Assembly: GCA_024516035.1 (NCBI GenBank)
Contig: CM044964.1
Span: forward strand, 7,810,236-7,874,235
DNA: 64,000 nt
From: Bactericera cockerelli
Taxonomy: Eukaryota; Arthropoda; Insecta; Hemiptera; Triozidae
Direction of reading: 5' to 3'
The translations under genes were made by a program, and so were the position numbers. The notes under the pieces are model-generated. The model was not told the DNA's origin and did no database searches. It was given only the letters and a program-made list of their open reading frames with translations. This document shows positions 9,181 to 62,068 of the stretch, in pieces; positions within the stretch are counted from its first letter, which is position 1; each line of letters starts with the position of its first letter.

Positions 9181-9290
9181 CCGACGTCAGTAGCTTGATC
9201 GATAAGGCGGCGGACTTGTAACCTGGAGGTCAGTGGTTCAACTCCTGTTTTACTGAAAACCCGCAACCAGTCAGGTAATAAAAACTACTT
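9181..9290 (+). mobile_element. Chimeric SINE: H head joined to D tail
   Basis: The head GTAGCTTGATCGATAAGGCG and CCTGGAGGTCAGTGGTTCAA is family H. The sequence that follows, TACTGAAAACCCGCAACCAG then TCAGGTAATAAAA, is the D-family tail (compare 51138-51172). Confidence 0.65.
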
Positions 9291-15419: not shown

Positions 15420-16463
15420 TCAATGGGACACATTTGGCCGACTGGCCTTCACAAGCTCATTGATTTGAGGTTGTATATATTTACTCAATGATACACGCAT
15501 ATCACTGGTGGCGTCCAGTCGGTTCCTTTGCTTAGATTTCAGGGTAAGTAAAGAGGAGAAACCTTGTTCACACATATAGGTTGTCGAAAATAGTACTAAA
15601 ATTCGGAGGGCAAGATTTCTAATTCTTGAATATCCACAAGCTTTGATACACCAAAATTCTTCTAGGTTGGTAGATTCATAGCAGTCCTTCAGAGAACTAT
15701 CATTTTGAAGTTCAATAAGTTCTTCTTGGAGATTGCTTTGTATATCTTTGCACGATATTGAAAATGGATTTCGAACGAGCCGTTTTACTGCGTCTGTGTC
15801 ATTTATGGTATACTCAGGAAAATACCGCTTGAATTCGTCTTTCAAATTCTCTAAATGTGTTGAGATGCTTTCGATGAGTGGTCCATTTGAGTATTCTGGG
15901 TCTTGATTCCGCCTTTCAATCATCAGTCTTTCCAAGTTCTTGAATGCAGAATAAATTCCATCTTCAATATTTGAAGACCACAGATCAAGTTTGCATATGA
16001 ATGCTTGAATTTTATCTTCAAAATTGAAAATATTTCCTGAACCACTGAGGTTCATGTTTCCAGATCCCTGAAGCTGTAAATTCAGTTTATTCAAGTGTTC
16101 AAAGATGTCTGCAATATATGCGAGTTTCAATTCAAAATCAGCATTTGAAATTTGGTCATGCATATCAGTCATGTCTTTTTCCAATAGAAATGCCTCAACT
16201 TCTTTTCTCAGTTGAAACAATCTGGCAAGCATATTGCCTTTAGAAAGCCATCGCGTCTCAGTATGATAAAGCAGGATATCATGTTCAGCATCCATGTCTT
16301 TGCACAGTTCTTTAAAGAGCCGAGTGTTGAGGGAACTGTTTTTTATGAAGTTCACTAATTTGATGGCCAATGTCATGACACTACCAAGTTCCGATGGCAA
16401 AGTTTTAGAAGCTAACGCTTGACGATGTATTATACAGTGTGTCGTTATTGTGTCAGAGTTCAT
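15420..16463 (-). pseudogene. hAT transposase, C-terminal part
   Basis: A 347-codon frame covering the distal RNase H-like fold and the C-terminal dimerisation region of a hAT transposase (ZBED5/SCAND3-like in general look). Visible family signatures are THCIIHRQAL at residues 8-17, ETRWLSKGN at 69-77, and the C-terminal block FSTTYMCEQGFSSLLTLKSK with a likely catalytic glutamate at residue 299. The apparent start methionine is probably not real: it lies in an A8 run where this frame joins the upstream frame 16453-16812 by a one-base shift. Acts in the nucleus by cut-and-paste of its own termini. Broken here, so probably inactive unless the shift is a sequencing error in the homopolymer. Confidence 0.9.
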
Positions 16464-16812
16464 TTTTTTTCACCAAAGCTGCCAAACCTGAACGCGAACC
16501 CATCATTGCTGGAGCACCGTCTGTGCAAAATCCTGCAAGCTTTTCCCATTCCAGTCCATGTTTTACAAAATAATCACTAATTGCGTCCATTACGTCTTTC
16601 CCTTTTGATGTAGTTGTCAGAGGTTTCAACATGAGCATTTCTTCTATTATCTTATTATCATTAGACAAAAATCTCACAAATACCAAAAGCTGGCAAAAAT
16701 TAGCAATGTCCGTGCTTTCATCGCATTGAAGAGCAAAGTAAGGAGATTTTTTTACCTGGTATACCAGCTGGTCTTCAATGTTAATTGCCATTTTGTCGAT
16801 ACGATCTTTCAC
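16453..16812 (-). pseudogene. hAT transposase, central catalytic part
   Basis: A frame of about 119 codons. It carries the first catalytic aspartate in CDESTD (residues 30-35) and the second in FCTDGAPAMMG (D98), spaced as in hAT transposases. It is out of frame with both neighbours: ORF upstream at 16832-17257 and ORF downstream at 15420-16463. A 15-bp direct duplication (ACGGTGTTATTTGAT, about 16811-16840) lies at the upstream break. Fifteen bases keep phase, so another indel must cause the shift. Confidence 0.9.
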
Positions 16813-25850: not shown

Positions 25851-25998
25851 AAAAGTTATCAAATTTGTGTTAATCACCCACGTGACGCCACAACTACTCA
25901 AACCCGCTTTACCAAATCCACGCTGAAACCGTGACTTGAACCACCGACCTCCAGGTTACAAGTTTATCGCCTAATCGTTCAAGCTACTGACGTCGGTA
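25851..25998 (-). mobile_element. SINE H, full-length antisense copy
   Basis: AAAGTTATCAAATTTGTGTT (tail) to ACTTGAACCACCGACCTCCA (B box) and CAAGCTACTGACGTCGG (A box). Confidence 0.85.
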
Positions 25999-28596: not shown

Positions 28597-28821
28597 GCCA
28601 GCGTCGATGGCGCGTTGAATGCACCGGTTCTCGTTGGATCACCGAAGTTAAGCAACGTCCAGCGAGGTGAAGACTTCGTGATGCTGGCATTCCGGCCCAA
28701 CCCAGGCTGGGTGAGGTTAATGTGGGTAGCAGGTTTGTGAGTTTCCTGCGAATGGAGGGTAACACCCCCGTCGTGATATGACCATGCAGTTGAAAGCGAC
28801 GTTAAAATAATAAAAAAAAAA
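28597..28821 (+). mobile_element. SINE A, best full-length copy (reference)
   Basis: GCCAGCGTCGATGGCGCGTT, then the 5S promoter block ATCACCGAAGTTAAGCAACG, then CCAGCGAGGTGAAGACTTCG, the shared body TTCCGGCCCAACCCAGGCTG, and CATGCAGTTGAAAGCGACGT with an A-rich tail. The 5S resemblance covers about the first 70 bases (ACCGGTTCTCGTNGGATCAC). The C block of 5S is replaced. Confidence 0.9.
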
Positions 28822-33225: not shown

Positions 33226-33394
33226 TATGAGTCAGTATAGAGAGAAAAGTGAGAAGTTGTACTTGATGTATATGAATATCAGAACATACCTGGACAGCTG
33301 TTTCGAGCTAATTTGCTCTCATCAGCAGGTAATAGTTCTGAATATCCATGTCATCAACTAACCTCTCTATTTCAATCAGTATAAACAGAAAAGT
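33226..33394 (-). mobile_element. 169-bp insert with hammerhead ribozyme (retrozyme-like or Penelope-derived)
   Basis: Inserted inside an H SINE. A 19-bp direct repeat, CAGTATAGAGAGAAAAGTG (33233) and CAGTATAAACAGAAAAGTG (33377), lies 144 bp apart, so the insert is one unit plus the start of a second, as expected from a concatemeric or circular RNA template. No open frame. Hammerhead type I motifs are known from Penelope-like elements and animal retrozyme-like small RNAs, and the insert could derive from either. Confidence 0.7.
33274..33347 (-). ncRNA. Type I hammerhead self-cleaving ribozyme
   Basis: The minus strand contains the full catalytic core in order. CUGAUGA is followed by stem II GAGC/GCUC with loop AAAUUA, then GAA, then ACAGCUGU (stem III, two pairs with an AGCU loop, self-complementary), then the cleavage triplet GUC. 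Stem I forms from ACCUG with CAGGU, an internal loop, and CAGAAC with GUUCUG, then about six further pairs with one bulged U. All invariant core bases are present. Predicted cleavage lies between plus-strand positions 33292 and 33293. The very short palindromic stem III is typical of hammerheads that act as dimers. Activity is inferred, not shown. Confidence 0.9.
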
Positions 33395-33493
33395 GTTACA
33401 AGTCCGCCGCCTTATGGATCCAGCTACTGAGGTCGGTGTTTTTTTTTTTTCAAGAAATACACCTGCATATTTTGAATACAAATTTTAAAGATC

Positions 33494-36460: not shown

Positions 36461-36655
36461 GGGTTTAACGTCGCTTTCAACTACATGGTCATATCACGAC
36501 GGGGGTGTTACCCTCCATTCGCAGGACGCATTCTCAAACCTTTTCTCAAATTACCCTCACCTAGCGTGGATGAGGCCGGAATTTTCGCCTCACTGAACGT
36601 TGCTTAACTTCGGTGATCCTACCAGAACCGGTGCATTCCACGCGCCTTCGACGCT
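36461..36655 (-). mobile_element. SINE A, antisense full copy
   Basis: GGGTTTAACGTCGCTTTCAA to CTTAACTTCGGTGATCCTAC and ACGCGCCTTCGACGCT. Confidence 0.85.
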
Positions 36656-36726
36656 TATAGTTATTTTTAATGGCACAGATTACTGATTTCATTCTAATCA
36701 TTTAGTTCCGCAAGATGTACTAAGCG

Positions 36727-39875: not shown

Positions 39876-40189
39876 CACTGATTAACTGTTATTTACGACT
39901 TGAGCTTAATAGTGCAGGAGTAACTCCGGTGTCACACCGTATTATAAACCTCCGTCATTACCAACCAACTCATTCATAGAACCGGTGTGATAGCTGTATA
40001 ACTTACCGGTAAATTGGAAGTTCATAGTTCATTACCACTGGAGAGTTAGAAGTTCATTCCATTTTCTAATTTCATCAGGAACCAAGCCTCGAGTTGGTAA
40101 TTTCAGGAATTATGTTTGTAATTTTTTTGAAAGCGACGTTTAACCCAAATTAAAAAAATAAATGTAATTTCAGGAAGATCTCAGAATTT
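39876..40189. other. Unassigned; A 3' scrap at 40131-40155
   Basis: AAAGCGACGTTTAACCCAAA near 40131 is the tail of family A. The remainder is unassigned. Confidence 0.4.
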
Positions 40190-40212
40190 ATTATTATTAT
40201 TATTATTAAACA

Positions 40213-40287
40213 AGTTAGATCAAGTTTTATTTACAAAATAATGACATACAATATATACTAAAATTAACAAAACAAAACTTGATCAAG
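40213..40287 (-). promoter_or_regulatory. LINE 3' UTR inverted repeat
   Basis: CTTGATCAAGTTTTGTTTT and, about 50 bases on, AAATAAAACTTGATC form a stem around GATCAAGTTTT/AAAACTTGATC. It is conserved in all three 3' ends in this window, so it is a candidate reverse-transcriptase recognition structure. Confidence 0.6.
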
Positions 40288-40503: not shown

Positions 40504-42273
40504 TCACTGATCCAATGCAAAAATGTATTCCTTTGATTTCATCTTAAATAACATACGACTTTCCAAGACTCTGAGTTCCTCTGGAAGCTGATTCCACAAT
40601 CTGGCAGCATTTACAGTGAAACTTTTACTCATGAAGTCTGTGTGATGAAGTGGAATGTTGAGGAGGTGTTGTGAACGTGTATTGTGTGAATGAAAACTTT
40701 GCAGAGGTTGAAATGTGGAGTGTAAGTATGAAGGTGTTGTTTCTTCGTTCATGATTTTCCACAAAAGACATAATGTCTGATGCTCCAGTCTTCTCGTAAT
40801 AGTCAACCACGTCAGCGATCTTCTTAGGTTAGAAACATGGTCATATTTTCTTAACCCGAAGATATAACGAATGCAAGCATTTTGGTAAGTCTGAAGTTTA
40901 TTCATGTTAAATCCATTCATATTGCTAAAAACTATTCCTCCGTACTCTATAGTTGGGAATATGAGAGACGTGCTTAAAAGTTTTTTTGTCTTTAGAGGTA
41001 AAAACTTTTTCATGCGATTTAAAGAATGGAATTTTCTGAAGACTCTTTTCCCAACATTAATAACTTGTGAATTCCATGAAAGATTCGAATCAAAGAGAAG
41101 GCCCAAGTTTTTAACTGTGTCAGAAAAAGGAATAGTAGTGGAGTTGAATCTGATGGGATGGGCTGTGATTCTTGATAACCTATCTAGAAGGGGAGATGAT
41201 CCTATTATGATACATTGAAATTTTTTAGGATTTGGTAAAATACCATGAGTCATAGTCCAATGATGTAATTGTTGAAGGTCATTGTTCAACATTTGAATTG
41301 CATTATTGATATTATCAACCGAAGAATGGATATATAGCTGTAAGTCATCAGCATACAAATGAAAAGAACAGTGTCTGAATATTTTTCCAATGTCATTTAT
41401 AAACATTGAAAATAAAATCGGACCTAGTATGCTGCCTTGAGGAACACCTGTTGTTGTAAACAGAATTTTAGAAAAAGCATCACCATTGAAGACATATTGC
41501 TGGCGATTTCTCAGATATGTAGAAAACCATTGGAGAACAGAAGTCGAGAAGTTGAAATATTTTTTTAGCTTGATAAGAAGAATTTCAAAATCAACCGAAT
41601 CAAAAGCTTTACTAAAGTCTGAAAGTAGTAGTACGGTAACTTGAGTTTTATCCATACTCTGACGTATGTCATCAGTTACTTTTATCAGAGCAGTAGTTGT
41701 GCTTTGACCCGGCCGAAATCCAGATTGATAGGGATTGAAGAGATTATTAAAATTACAATAATTGATGATTTGAAAATGTACGACCTTCTCAAGGACTTTG
41801 GAAAATACAGGTAAAAGTGAAATGGGACGAAAATCGTTCAATCCCTTAGGTTTAGATATCTTGGGCAGAGGAACAATGCGACCAATTTTCCATTGTTGTG
41901 GAAATACGCCTGTTGATAGTGAGGAATTAATAATATGCGTCAAAGGAGAAACAATGGAATCTAAAATCAGCTTGAGGAAACGGATGGATAAACCATCAGT
42001 ACCAGTTGCATTGGATCTAATAGTTAAAAACGCCTGTCTCACATCTGCACAAGAAACATCTTGGAAGTAAAACTCAGGATGTGTTGGATTAGGTTGAGCA
42101 AGTATGCTATCGATAATATTTAGCTTATGTGTTGGGTCTAAACTCACAGGTGGTGTTACAAATTGTTTATTAAGATCATCTAAGCTGAATTGAGGGTCAA
42201 TACGTTTAGTTGAATCATTCACATTTATACCAAGACTCCTTAAAAAACTGCCAAAGTGATTTTTCATTTTCAC
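40504..42273 (-). pseudogene. LINE reverse transcriptase and C-terminal domain
   Basis: A 589-codon frame. Key motifs: NDFRPISLLPVFSKVLEKVV (residues 146-165), DFSKAFDSVD (219-228, first catalytic aspartate), GVPQGSILGPILF (276-288), and YADD (307-310). The distal part carries the LINE C-terminal pattern RRLEHQTLCLLWKIMNEE, HNTRSQHLL and ARLWNQLPEELR, widely seen in jockey, CR1 and related clades. The apparent start at 42273 is within the protein: the endonuclease frame (42215-43000) overlaps it by 59 bp, and a one-base shift in a six-base T run (minus strand) splits them. Otherwise intact to its stop. Confidence 0.93.
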
Positions 42274-43000
42274 AGGATGCTATACCCTGAGATATATAAA
42301 TTTCTTTAGCATCACGAACAGATAGGTTACATAAATTTCTAAGATGTTTATATTTTGCATGTTGAAGCTCCGATTTAGTTTTTCGAAATTTGTTGTAGGC
42401 TCGATCTCTTCGTTTCATAAGATTTAAAATTTCAGGGGTAAGCCATGGAGTAGGAGGATATTTCACTTTGGCGTTTTTTAAAGGAGCATGTTTATCAAGA
42501 AGCCCTGTAGTAATATTGGTGAATAATTCAACTTGAGCATTTGAATCACTCAATTCAGTTACGAGACTCCATTCAGCGCTTTCAGCATCACTAATCAGAT
42601 TGTCAAGGTCCATATTACGGAAATCCCTGAACCTAATTTTTCTCAAAGAATATTTAATATTACCAAGTTGATAAGCCATGAAAATTAAATCATGGTGAGA
42701 AAAACCAGGTGCAGAAATCTGCTCATAATATTGGACTTTATTAGGTGATTTTACAATTGTGAGATCTAACAAGCTGTCATAATTGTCTAAGTGAAATGTT
42801 GGTTTTGAAGGTAAAATGGACAAACTGACTGACTTCATTAGATTTTTAAATCTTTTTGAATGCAGATTAGCAACATTGAGATCACAATTAAAATCACCCA
42901 TAACAATAACATCTTCATAGTGAGGCAAGAAAGTACCCAATAAAGTTTCAAGATCCTCAGAATAAACAATAGTAGGCGGCCTATAAACTACACCCAACAA
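42215..43000 (-). pseudogene. LINE apurinic-type endonuclease, C-terminal portion, and linker
   Basis: A 261-codon frame. GVVYRPPT starts it. VIVMGDFNCD (residues 31-40) is the conserved GDFN block with catalytic asparagine, and FSHHDLI (100-106) is the conserved SDH-type end of the endonuclease fold. The N-terminal half with the first catalytic residues is missing because the element is 5'-truncated. The frame ends at LWQFFKES, at the homopolymer shift described above. The linker has a basic stretch (MKRRDRAYNKFRKTKSE). Confidence 0.92.
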
Positions 43001-53072: not shown

Positions 53073-53281
53073 TTAACGTCGCTTTCCACTACATGGTCAT
53101 ATCACGACGGGGGTGTTACCTTCCATTCGTAGGAAACTCACAAACCTGCTACCCGCATTAACCTCATCCAGACTGGATTGGACCAGAATGCCAGCATCAC
53201 AAAGTCTTCACCTCGCTGGACGTTGCTTAACTTCGGTGATCCTACGAGAACCGGTGCATTCAACGCACCATCGATGCTAGC
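53073..53281 (-). mobile_element. SINE A, complete antisense copy
   Basis: TTAACGTCGCTTTCCACTAC to CTTAACTTCGGTGATCCTAC and CCATCGATGCTAGC. Confidence 0.88.
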
Positions 53282-61460: not shown

Positions 61461-61926
61461 TGGTTAGCATGCTTACTTTACGTACAAAGCTTCTGTATTT
61501 TGTAGACTGTGAATTATTGTGCAATTAAAAATTGAATTTCCACACATCAGAGCAAGATATACAGTCATAAACCTGCATTTTCTAGGTTTTACATGAAATA
61601 GGTAGTACATTTCCCAGTAGATCGTACAACTTGAACAACACAACAACATACTTTTAAGAGTATAACAACAACATACTTTTACAAGTATAACAACAACACA
61701 ACAGTTCACAAGACACATAAATAACGACTAGATGCAGTTACTACTTCCCCATCACTTAGCTATTTGTCCTCAAGGTTAAATATGTTGGCGATTTCGCCAC
61801 TCTGATCCTAATGATTCAATTTATTAGCAAAAAAGAAAAAAAAAAAGATAGAAAAATAATCTGAAAATATTGACCAATCACTTCCTCGCGAACTTCTGAG
61901 GTGAGTAACAGTTATTTATCAAACCC
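61461..61926. other. Unassigned; 30-bp near-duplicate
   Basis: ACAACATACTTTTAAGAGTA and ACAACATACTTTTACAAGTA with TAACAACAAC form a small direct duplication near 61643-61690. No gene. Confidence 0.4.
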
Positions 61927-62068
61927 ACTTCAAGTAGCTTGATCGATAAGGCGGCGGACTTGTAACCTGGAGGTCGATGGTTCATGTTCCAAGTGAAACA
62001 AAAATTTAGTAAAGCTAGTTTCAGTAATTGGGACATCAAAATAACATTGTGACTAACACAGATATGAT
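61927..62068 (+). mobile_element. SINE H, near-complete
   Basis: AAGTAGCTTGATCGATAAGG, CTTGTAACCTGGAGGTCGAT, TTTAGTAAAGCTAGTTTCAG and GACTAACACAGATATGAT. Confidence 0.85.

Follow-up and report, generated by a model that had tools for sequence, protein, structure and literature searches.

The hammerhead ribozyme on the minus strand of the window (the whole stretch of 64,000 nucleotides from Bactericera cockerelli that was analysed) is probably the ribozyme of one copy of an animal non-LTR retrozyme, a 144-nt non-coding element mobilised via a borrowed reverse transcriptase. The assignment of the element to the retrozymes is itself highly likely. What is new is that its copies combine a uniform 3′ end with an ACTGA-type tail and variable 5′ ends, which, as read from the genomic copies, is the anatomy of LINE-type target-primed reverse transcription. 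The result places an abundant hammerhead family in psyllids. A search of the literature on hammerhead ribozymes in psyllids or Hemiptera gave no title or abstract start describing such an element.

The ribozyme motif

The initial annotation had described a type I hammerhead at 33274..33347 on the minus strand, with the core parts in order, an internal loop in stem I and a cleavage site at 33293/33292. The motif is delimited as follows:

33287..33331, minus strand: type I hammerhead core (Rfam extent; RF00163, 36.4 bits against a gathering score of 34)
33280..33340, minus strand: hammerhead with extended stem I and a 3-by-1 internal loop (pairing read from the sequence)
33292..33293, minus strand: predicted self-cleavage site, after GUC (33295-33293), at the hammerhead consensus position

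The comparison with the Rfam models by Infernal that had been suggested there puts RF00163 above its threshold, with an E-value of 1.8e-05 for the 64-kb window. All of the listed core parts are found, in order, on the minus strand. Stem I is formed by CAGAAC (33340-33335) and TACCTG (33331-33326) on its 5′ side and by CAGGTA (33292-33287) and GTTCTG (33285-33280) on its 3′ side; CTGATGA is located at 33325-33319, stem II consists of GAGC (33318-33315) and GCTC (33308-33305) with the loop AAATTA, GAA is at 33304-33302, and the 8-nt stem III palindrome ACAGCTGT occupies 33301-33294, with C17 at 33293. The motif type, its strand, the stem I internal loop and the position of the cleavage site all agree with both the covariance model and the conservation across the family described below. 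The hammerhead in the window is thus a genuine type I motif, the cleavage itself being predicted.

Two details of the first reading have to be modified. The palindrome in stem III is present, but a 4-bp stem without a loop is impossible within one strand, and in the monomer stem III should therefore be drawn as 2 bp closed by an AGCU tetraloop. Similarly, cleavage as a dimer had been proposed, and the 8-nt palindrome does allow a dimer, but the monomer with the 2-bp stem III and the tetraloop can also fold. Such a monomer form is called similar to invertebrate hammerheads in a passage of PMC7229834, which also credits most invertebrate retrozymes with efficient self-cleavage.

That the motif is a chance arrangement resembling a hammerhead and devoid of function is hardly conceivable, even though its Rfam score exceeds the cut-off by 2.4 bits and no more. 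A type I descriptor that we built matches once in the window and not at all in 60 first-order Markov simulations of 64 kb. The 26-nt ribozyme core CTGATGAGAGCAAATAAGCTCGAAAC, a query that represents the commoner loop variant and differs from the window's own, is matched exactly at 2,103 places of the 565-Mb assembly, compared to 0 for the reversed control. This repeat family is the strongest argument against a chance origin and refutes it, in line with the very low probability of a random arrangement that had been claimed from the window.

The insert and its target

As to the extent of the feature, the annotated interval holds the motif but is too small. It lies within a 169-bp insert containing a 144-nt unit, and what had been missed is the dispersed retroelement, inserted into a SINE, to which the hammerhead belongs:

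33226..33394, minus strand: whole retrozyme insert, 169 bp, ca 1.14 units of the 144-nt element and a short tail; absent from the uninterrupted SINEs of the window
33232..33251, minus strand: 3′ copy of a 20-nt terminal direct repeat (spacing 144), ending at the fixed 3′ end ...TATACTGA (33239-33232)
33376..33395, minus strand: 5′ copy of this repeat, at a spacing of 144 from the 3′ copy and 90% identical to it
33226..33231, minus strand: short 3′ tail CTCATA, compared with the tails of three other copies (L006-L008)
33395..33437, minus strand: 5′ half of a tRNA-derived SINE head (A box to anticodon loop), ca 42-44 nt matches in the window with 79-93% identity
33197..33225, minus strand: 3′ half of the tRNA-derived SINE head (B box GGTTCAAGTCC), from window places with adjacent halves

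The direct repeat at a spacing of 144 means that the insert consists of one 144-nt unit, ca 20 nt more and a 6-nt tail. The tail CTCATA may derive by decay from a CTGATA tail unit, running into the CTGG of the target. Over nearly its full length the insert is 94-97% identical to other genomic copies.

A BLAST comparison of the region with the window identified the two flanks as the halves of a tRNA-derived SINE head. Elsewhere in the window these halves adjoin each other (for example at 9181-9251, 25920-25997 and 61923-61990), and several uninterrupted copies read TTGTAACCTGGAGG. At the site studied the head is split after TTGTAAC, at the anticodon loop, by 33394 to 33226; in our reading the anticodon would be UGU. 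No target duplication was found at the window insert.

As the insert is flanked by a tRNA-like head, with the A-box half on one side and the B-box half on the other, a composite tRNA-SINE that carries the hammerhead as a part of its own has to be considered. The schistosome Sm-alpha repeats are an example of such a composite, and in 7 of the 40 loci, counting that of the window, the SINE A half is found within 500 bp of the element. However, SINE halves lie at the junctions of only one of the 40 fetched copies, which is again that of the window (L001), and the other SINE copies in the window are without insert, making this explanation very improbable. The hammerhead and the tRNA-SINE as one element were thus rejected; the insert and the SINE are separate families.

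Some other features of the window were also observed. Stretches resembling 5S rRNA are located at 28597-28689 (plus strand), 53189-53281 (minus) and 36559-36658 (minus), the third below the Rfam cut-off, and more such matches occur in three of the fetched loci (L058, L059, L005); they look like a 5S-derived SINE family. A weak DUF4371 match at 16453-16812 on the minus strand, below the DUF4371 cut-off, is perhaps a transposase remnant.

The family

A search of the organism's own genome with the insert listed 1,381 first-look candidates, and the 40 of these that were scored contain 55 matches. The 40 loci that were fetched had been selected for similarity to the window insert, as near-full-length matches, and since three of them (L002-L004) share flanks, as do two others (L029 and L031), they represent ca 37 independent insertions. 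Their best alignments to tandem units extend over 1.12 to 2.41 units per locus, with ca 1.9-2.4 units in four loci (L002, L018, L019, L040) and 1.1-1.6 in the other 36. Among the first ca 100 core places listed, four neighbour pairs are 141-144 nt apart. Tandem or multimeric short repeats with a type I hammerhead, a trait of animal non-LTR retrozymes, are thus present. The copy in L002 is about one unit longer than those in L003 and L004 at the shared site, which shows that units were gained or lost in place. Lengths just over one lap are in excess among the 40 copies, but the way these were selected confounds the count, and no claim is made from it.

The identity to the majority unit is at least 98% in 37 of the 40 loci and lowest, 96.3%, in the window copy. 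An arbitrary genome sample also holds older copies, the longest being 92% identical. From this spread, the family has both young and old members as judged by sequence identity, and the window holds one old genomic copy of the element.

It is important to note how the unit compares with the description of the class. Its size of 144 nt narrowly misses the reported range for animal retrozymes (150-450 bp), which is a descriptive range, and its GC content is 35%, below the 50% used to delimit retrozymes. Non-LTR retrozymes are to be without LTR, primer binding site and polypurine tract; the one terminal repeat seen here, of 20 nt, arises from an over-length copy. The exact core pattern had no match in viral contigs.

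The ribozyme is well conserved among 47 hammerhead instances, a set in which overlapping loci (L063, L064, L066, L067, L069) were dropped and duplicated sites kept. The core is intact in 46 of them, and the core together with all 18 pairs in 42. Loop II reads AAATAA in 43 of the 47, while the window copy has the rarer AAATTA. In an Rfam scan of 10 fetched loci only L002 scored above the cut-off and the other nine below, in our opinion because the majority carry AAATAA. When duplicated sites are dropped (41 copies), 17 substitutions are counted over 2,920 positions in the 61-nt hammerhead, compared to 53 over 4,983 elsewhere, a modest difference in a selected sample. For covariation in the hammerhead, the variation among the instances is too low.

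A coding role was also considered. In the majority 144-nt circle, one frame is free of stops and hence endless, with 48 codons. Shuffling gives such a frame in 2,914 of 20,000 circles. Across 44 copies there are 52 distinct changes, of which 3 are stop, 11 silent and 38 missense, where 2.1, 12.8 and 37.2 are expected; the frame of the window copy is interrupted, in our reading, by a stop in loop II. With shuffles that match and no coding constraint, the frame was rejected as coding, at low power.

The 3′ end, the tail and the target sites

With unit positions numbered from the cleavage site, the element ends between 60 and 64 in all 40 loci, window copy included (60 in one locus, 61 in 11, 62 in 13, 63 in five and 64 in 10). 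The fixed 3′ end of the element is ...TTTTCTGTTTATACTGA, and the ends, ca 62 nt past the cleavage site, read ...TGTTTATACTGA(TT) or a close variant. A further ACTG follows within 14 nt in 36 of the 40 loci, compared to 59 of 1,724 background places; it is missing in L019, L022 and L026 and slightly farther away in L032.

The similarity selection of the 40 loci biases their 5′ ends, but two less biased samples agree on the 3′ end. In 20 arbitrarily placed 10-kb stretches we found four fragments, of 197, 112, 49 and 39 nt, the two longest of which share a stretch. They end at 58, 64, 62 and 57, respectively, the 39-nt fragment having no clear tail. The other sample starts from the tail. The string (TACTGA)4 has 11 overlapping matches in the genome at seven distinct places (the reversed pattern, also a simple repeat, has 14 matches), and all seven places directly follow the 3′ end of the element. 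At two of them only ca 11-19 nt of the element are left (ca 11 nt in L071).

The target sites are less uniform. Candidate duplications of 6-8 nt are seen in eight of the 40 loci (six separate sites), some of them overlapping element bases; in animal non-LTR retrozymes such duplications, if present, are longer than 4 bp. At sites inside local repeats the insertion appears, in our reading, to have taken place without duplication (L028, L029, L036). Flank strings are longer in true than in mismatched pairs (mean 7.5 vs 5.3), but part of this excess comes from local repeats, and no firm duplication length is therefore claimed. In two loci that are apparent duplicates (L062 and L065), the unit is broken up by foreign sequence that includes a long run of T; this chimeric copy perhaps arose from a template switch.

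The 5′ ends and the cleavage junction

In contrast to the 3′ end, the 5′ ends vary among the 40 loci. Five of them (L005, L009, L019, L020, L039) start within −4 to +1 of the cleavage site, and L005 repeats a piece of 18 nt with its start likewise at the cleavage site. Genome-wide, the cleavage site has 23 exact 5′-junction matches, compared to 8 for a control position 10 nt further on and 27 for position 42, so a pile-up of 5′ ends at the cleavage site was rejected, there being no convincing excess.

The 23 matches can be sorted by their five upstream bases, which resemble a 1-nt deletion in five cases, a 3-nt insertion in seven, a mutated copy in one and none of these in the remaining 10. 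Out of the 10, the fetched loci L077, L080 and L082 are true starts, as is L078, while two others (with AACAG and GGTAT upstream) could be rearranged element. At most 10 of the 23 would thus be true starts at the cleavage site. Of the six of the 23 that were fetched, L078 and L082 span the element from the cleavage site to its fixed 3′ end, as does L077 apart from a small internal deletion, and L080 begins at the cleavage site and continues past one lap. Such starts fit self-cleaved templates, with an excess over the controls that is not established.

The remaining two fetched loci (L079 and L081) have three extra bases at the cleavage junction. Counting all matches, small insertions or the loss of one base exactly at this junction are found in 12 of the 23 (two fetched). 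They perhaps reflect end-to-end template jumps between self-cleaved RNAs; the control pattern is blind to single-base losses, and the variants may be inherited.

Predicted fold of the unit as a circle

The predicted circular fold is a rod, with −42.7 kcal/mol for the unit of L019 and −44.2 kcal/mol for that of the window, which is below mononucleotide shuffles by 5.6 and 6.7 SD, respectively. Forcing the hammerhead costs 6.0 kcal/mol (tertiary contacts not counted) and leaves the rod unchanged. In the family fold, the ribozyme occupies one end of the rod and the fixed 3′ end the other, within the predicted apical loop AUACUGAUUA. In the window copy, where the hairpin is mutated, a smaller loop is predicted at the apical position.

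Proposed mechanism of mobilisation

We infer that the RNA cleaves itself in the insect, forms circles and is copied from the apical loop by a LINE-type enzyme using target priming. The 144-nt element would be transcribed, and the transcript would cut itself at the hammerhead GUC site. The cut RNA would then be ligated to a rod-shaped circle, or persist as multimers. Next, a LINE-type enzyme would prime on nicked target DNA and copy from the apical loop opposite the ribozyme, and slippage on ACTGA would yield the tail. For LINE-type target-primed integration the balance is moderately favourable, while a circle and a linear multimer are about equally probable as the usual template. More tentatively, and with somewhat less than an even chance, we propose that in animal retrozymes target-primed reverse transcription always enters the circle at the apical loop and then makes one or more laps. 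If this is true, the entry loop is a recognition tag for the partner LINE, and the apical entry accounts for both the fixed 3′ end with its slipped ACTGA tails and the over-length copies.

A serious rival is a linear, SINE-like spread, in which tailed source transcripts are copied from the ACTGA tail by the LINE enzyme, the hammerhead trims and circles are not involved. A tailed linear template suffices for the fixed 3′ end and the tail, and the three of six fetched junction loci that span the element from cleavage site to 3′ end are what is expected of a self-cleaved linear 3′ fragment, as is the extra 18-nt piece of L005 starting at the cleavage site once more. On the other hand, many copies exceed one unit and cross the cleavage site in register, for which a tandem source or a circle is needed, and the rod fold together with the published circles of similar elements favours circles. 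We consider the linear spread rather unlikely. A different question is whether a LINE is involved at all. The marks of LINE-type target-primed copying are 5′ truncation, a tail of short repeats and a well-defined 3′ end, and the retrozyme copies display all three. This argues against mobilisation by a Penelope-like element, which we regard as improbable, although such elements do have type I hammerheads and occur in tandem, according to a passage of PMC7229834.

The partner enzyme

We have searched in two ways for the LINE-type partner that the proposed target-primed copying would require. A LINE sharing the tail was not found, all seven (TACTGA)4 places being the retrozyme element itself. The 3′ end with foreign DNA just upstream occurs at 27 places (reversed control 0), and this non-exhaustive search gave no partner LINE. 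Of the three places fetched first, two (L073 and L074) are the element and one (L072) is a complex short insert, of whose locus L076 is a duplication. Longer copies like that of L012 are also among the 27, because some of the 40 fetched loci start there.

The window contains a LINE of its own:

40504-43000 (minus strand) and 40187-40213: LINE that has ORFs for an endonuclease and a reverse transcriptase, its tail being (TAA)n

The reverse transcriptase ORF (40504-42273, minus strand) has 79% identity to an unnamed protein, 78% to one of the psyllid Cyamophila willieti and 50% to a Diaphorina citri protein, so that this one mobile gene points to a psyllid genome. The LINE ends in (TAA)n, without ACTGA repeats, and the tail of the tRNA-SINE is (TTA)n. 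With such a tail it is not an obvious partner of the retrozyme, but a possible one of the tRNA-SINE.

The mobilising enzyme and the priming of a small circle are put as open questions in passages of PMC7229834 and PMC7761336. In the former, Penelope-like elements are suspected for animal retrozymes, while the latter describes the animal repeats as being without a conserved motif that would help to deduce the partner. Priming and partner can be put to the test with the present family, which is abundant, includes young members and has a short unit (144 nt) whose copies carry a tail after a sharply defined 3′ end. These copies locate the putative entry point with an accuracy of a few bases, and the ...CUUUUCUGUUUAUACUGA loop region is what the partner would be expected to recognise.

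Comparison with known systems

tRNA-derived SINEs with LINE-type tails have a fixed 3′ end, a short-repeat tail and variable 5′ truncation, and are non-coding. The psyllid element is like them in its 3′ end and tail, its truncated 5′ ends and its lack of any need to code, but unlike them it has no visible tRNA-like head of its own and forms copies of more than one unit.

With plant LTR retrozymes the element shares the nature of a hammerhead-bearing, non-autonomous retroelement. The plant elements are described in parts of PMC7229834 and PMC7761336 as having type III hammerheads, LTRs of ca 350 bp, PBS and PPT, and 4-bp duplications, whereas the psyllid hammerhead is of type I and no LTR structure is seen. 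In Penelope-like elements and Terminons, as outlined in PMC7761336, a type I hammerhead likewise resides in a retroelement. There, however, minimal hammerheads are found in long elements, while the psyllid ribozyme is canonical, with an extended stem I, in a unit of 144 nt.

The closest likeness is to the animal non-LTR retrozymes. As presented by Cervera & de la Peña (2020, PMC7229834) and in a review (PMC7761336), these share with the psyllid element the type I hammerhead, a small, AT-rich, non-coding unit, tandem copies, a dispersed high copy number and a rod-like predicted RNA. Repeats with type I hammerheads occur in many phyla, insects being named as carriers (PMC7229834, in part). The repeats are given there as 150-450 bp and the RNAs as ca 170-400 nt, and the 144 nt of the psyllid unit fall below both. 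The psyllid element also differs in its defined 3′ end, its ACTGA-type tail and its 5′ truncation; in the two main texts the word microsatellite is absent, and truncation appears once, in connection with twister ribozymes. The element is very probably an animal non-LTR retrozyme, a new member of this group slightly below the published size.
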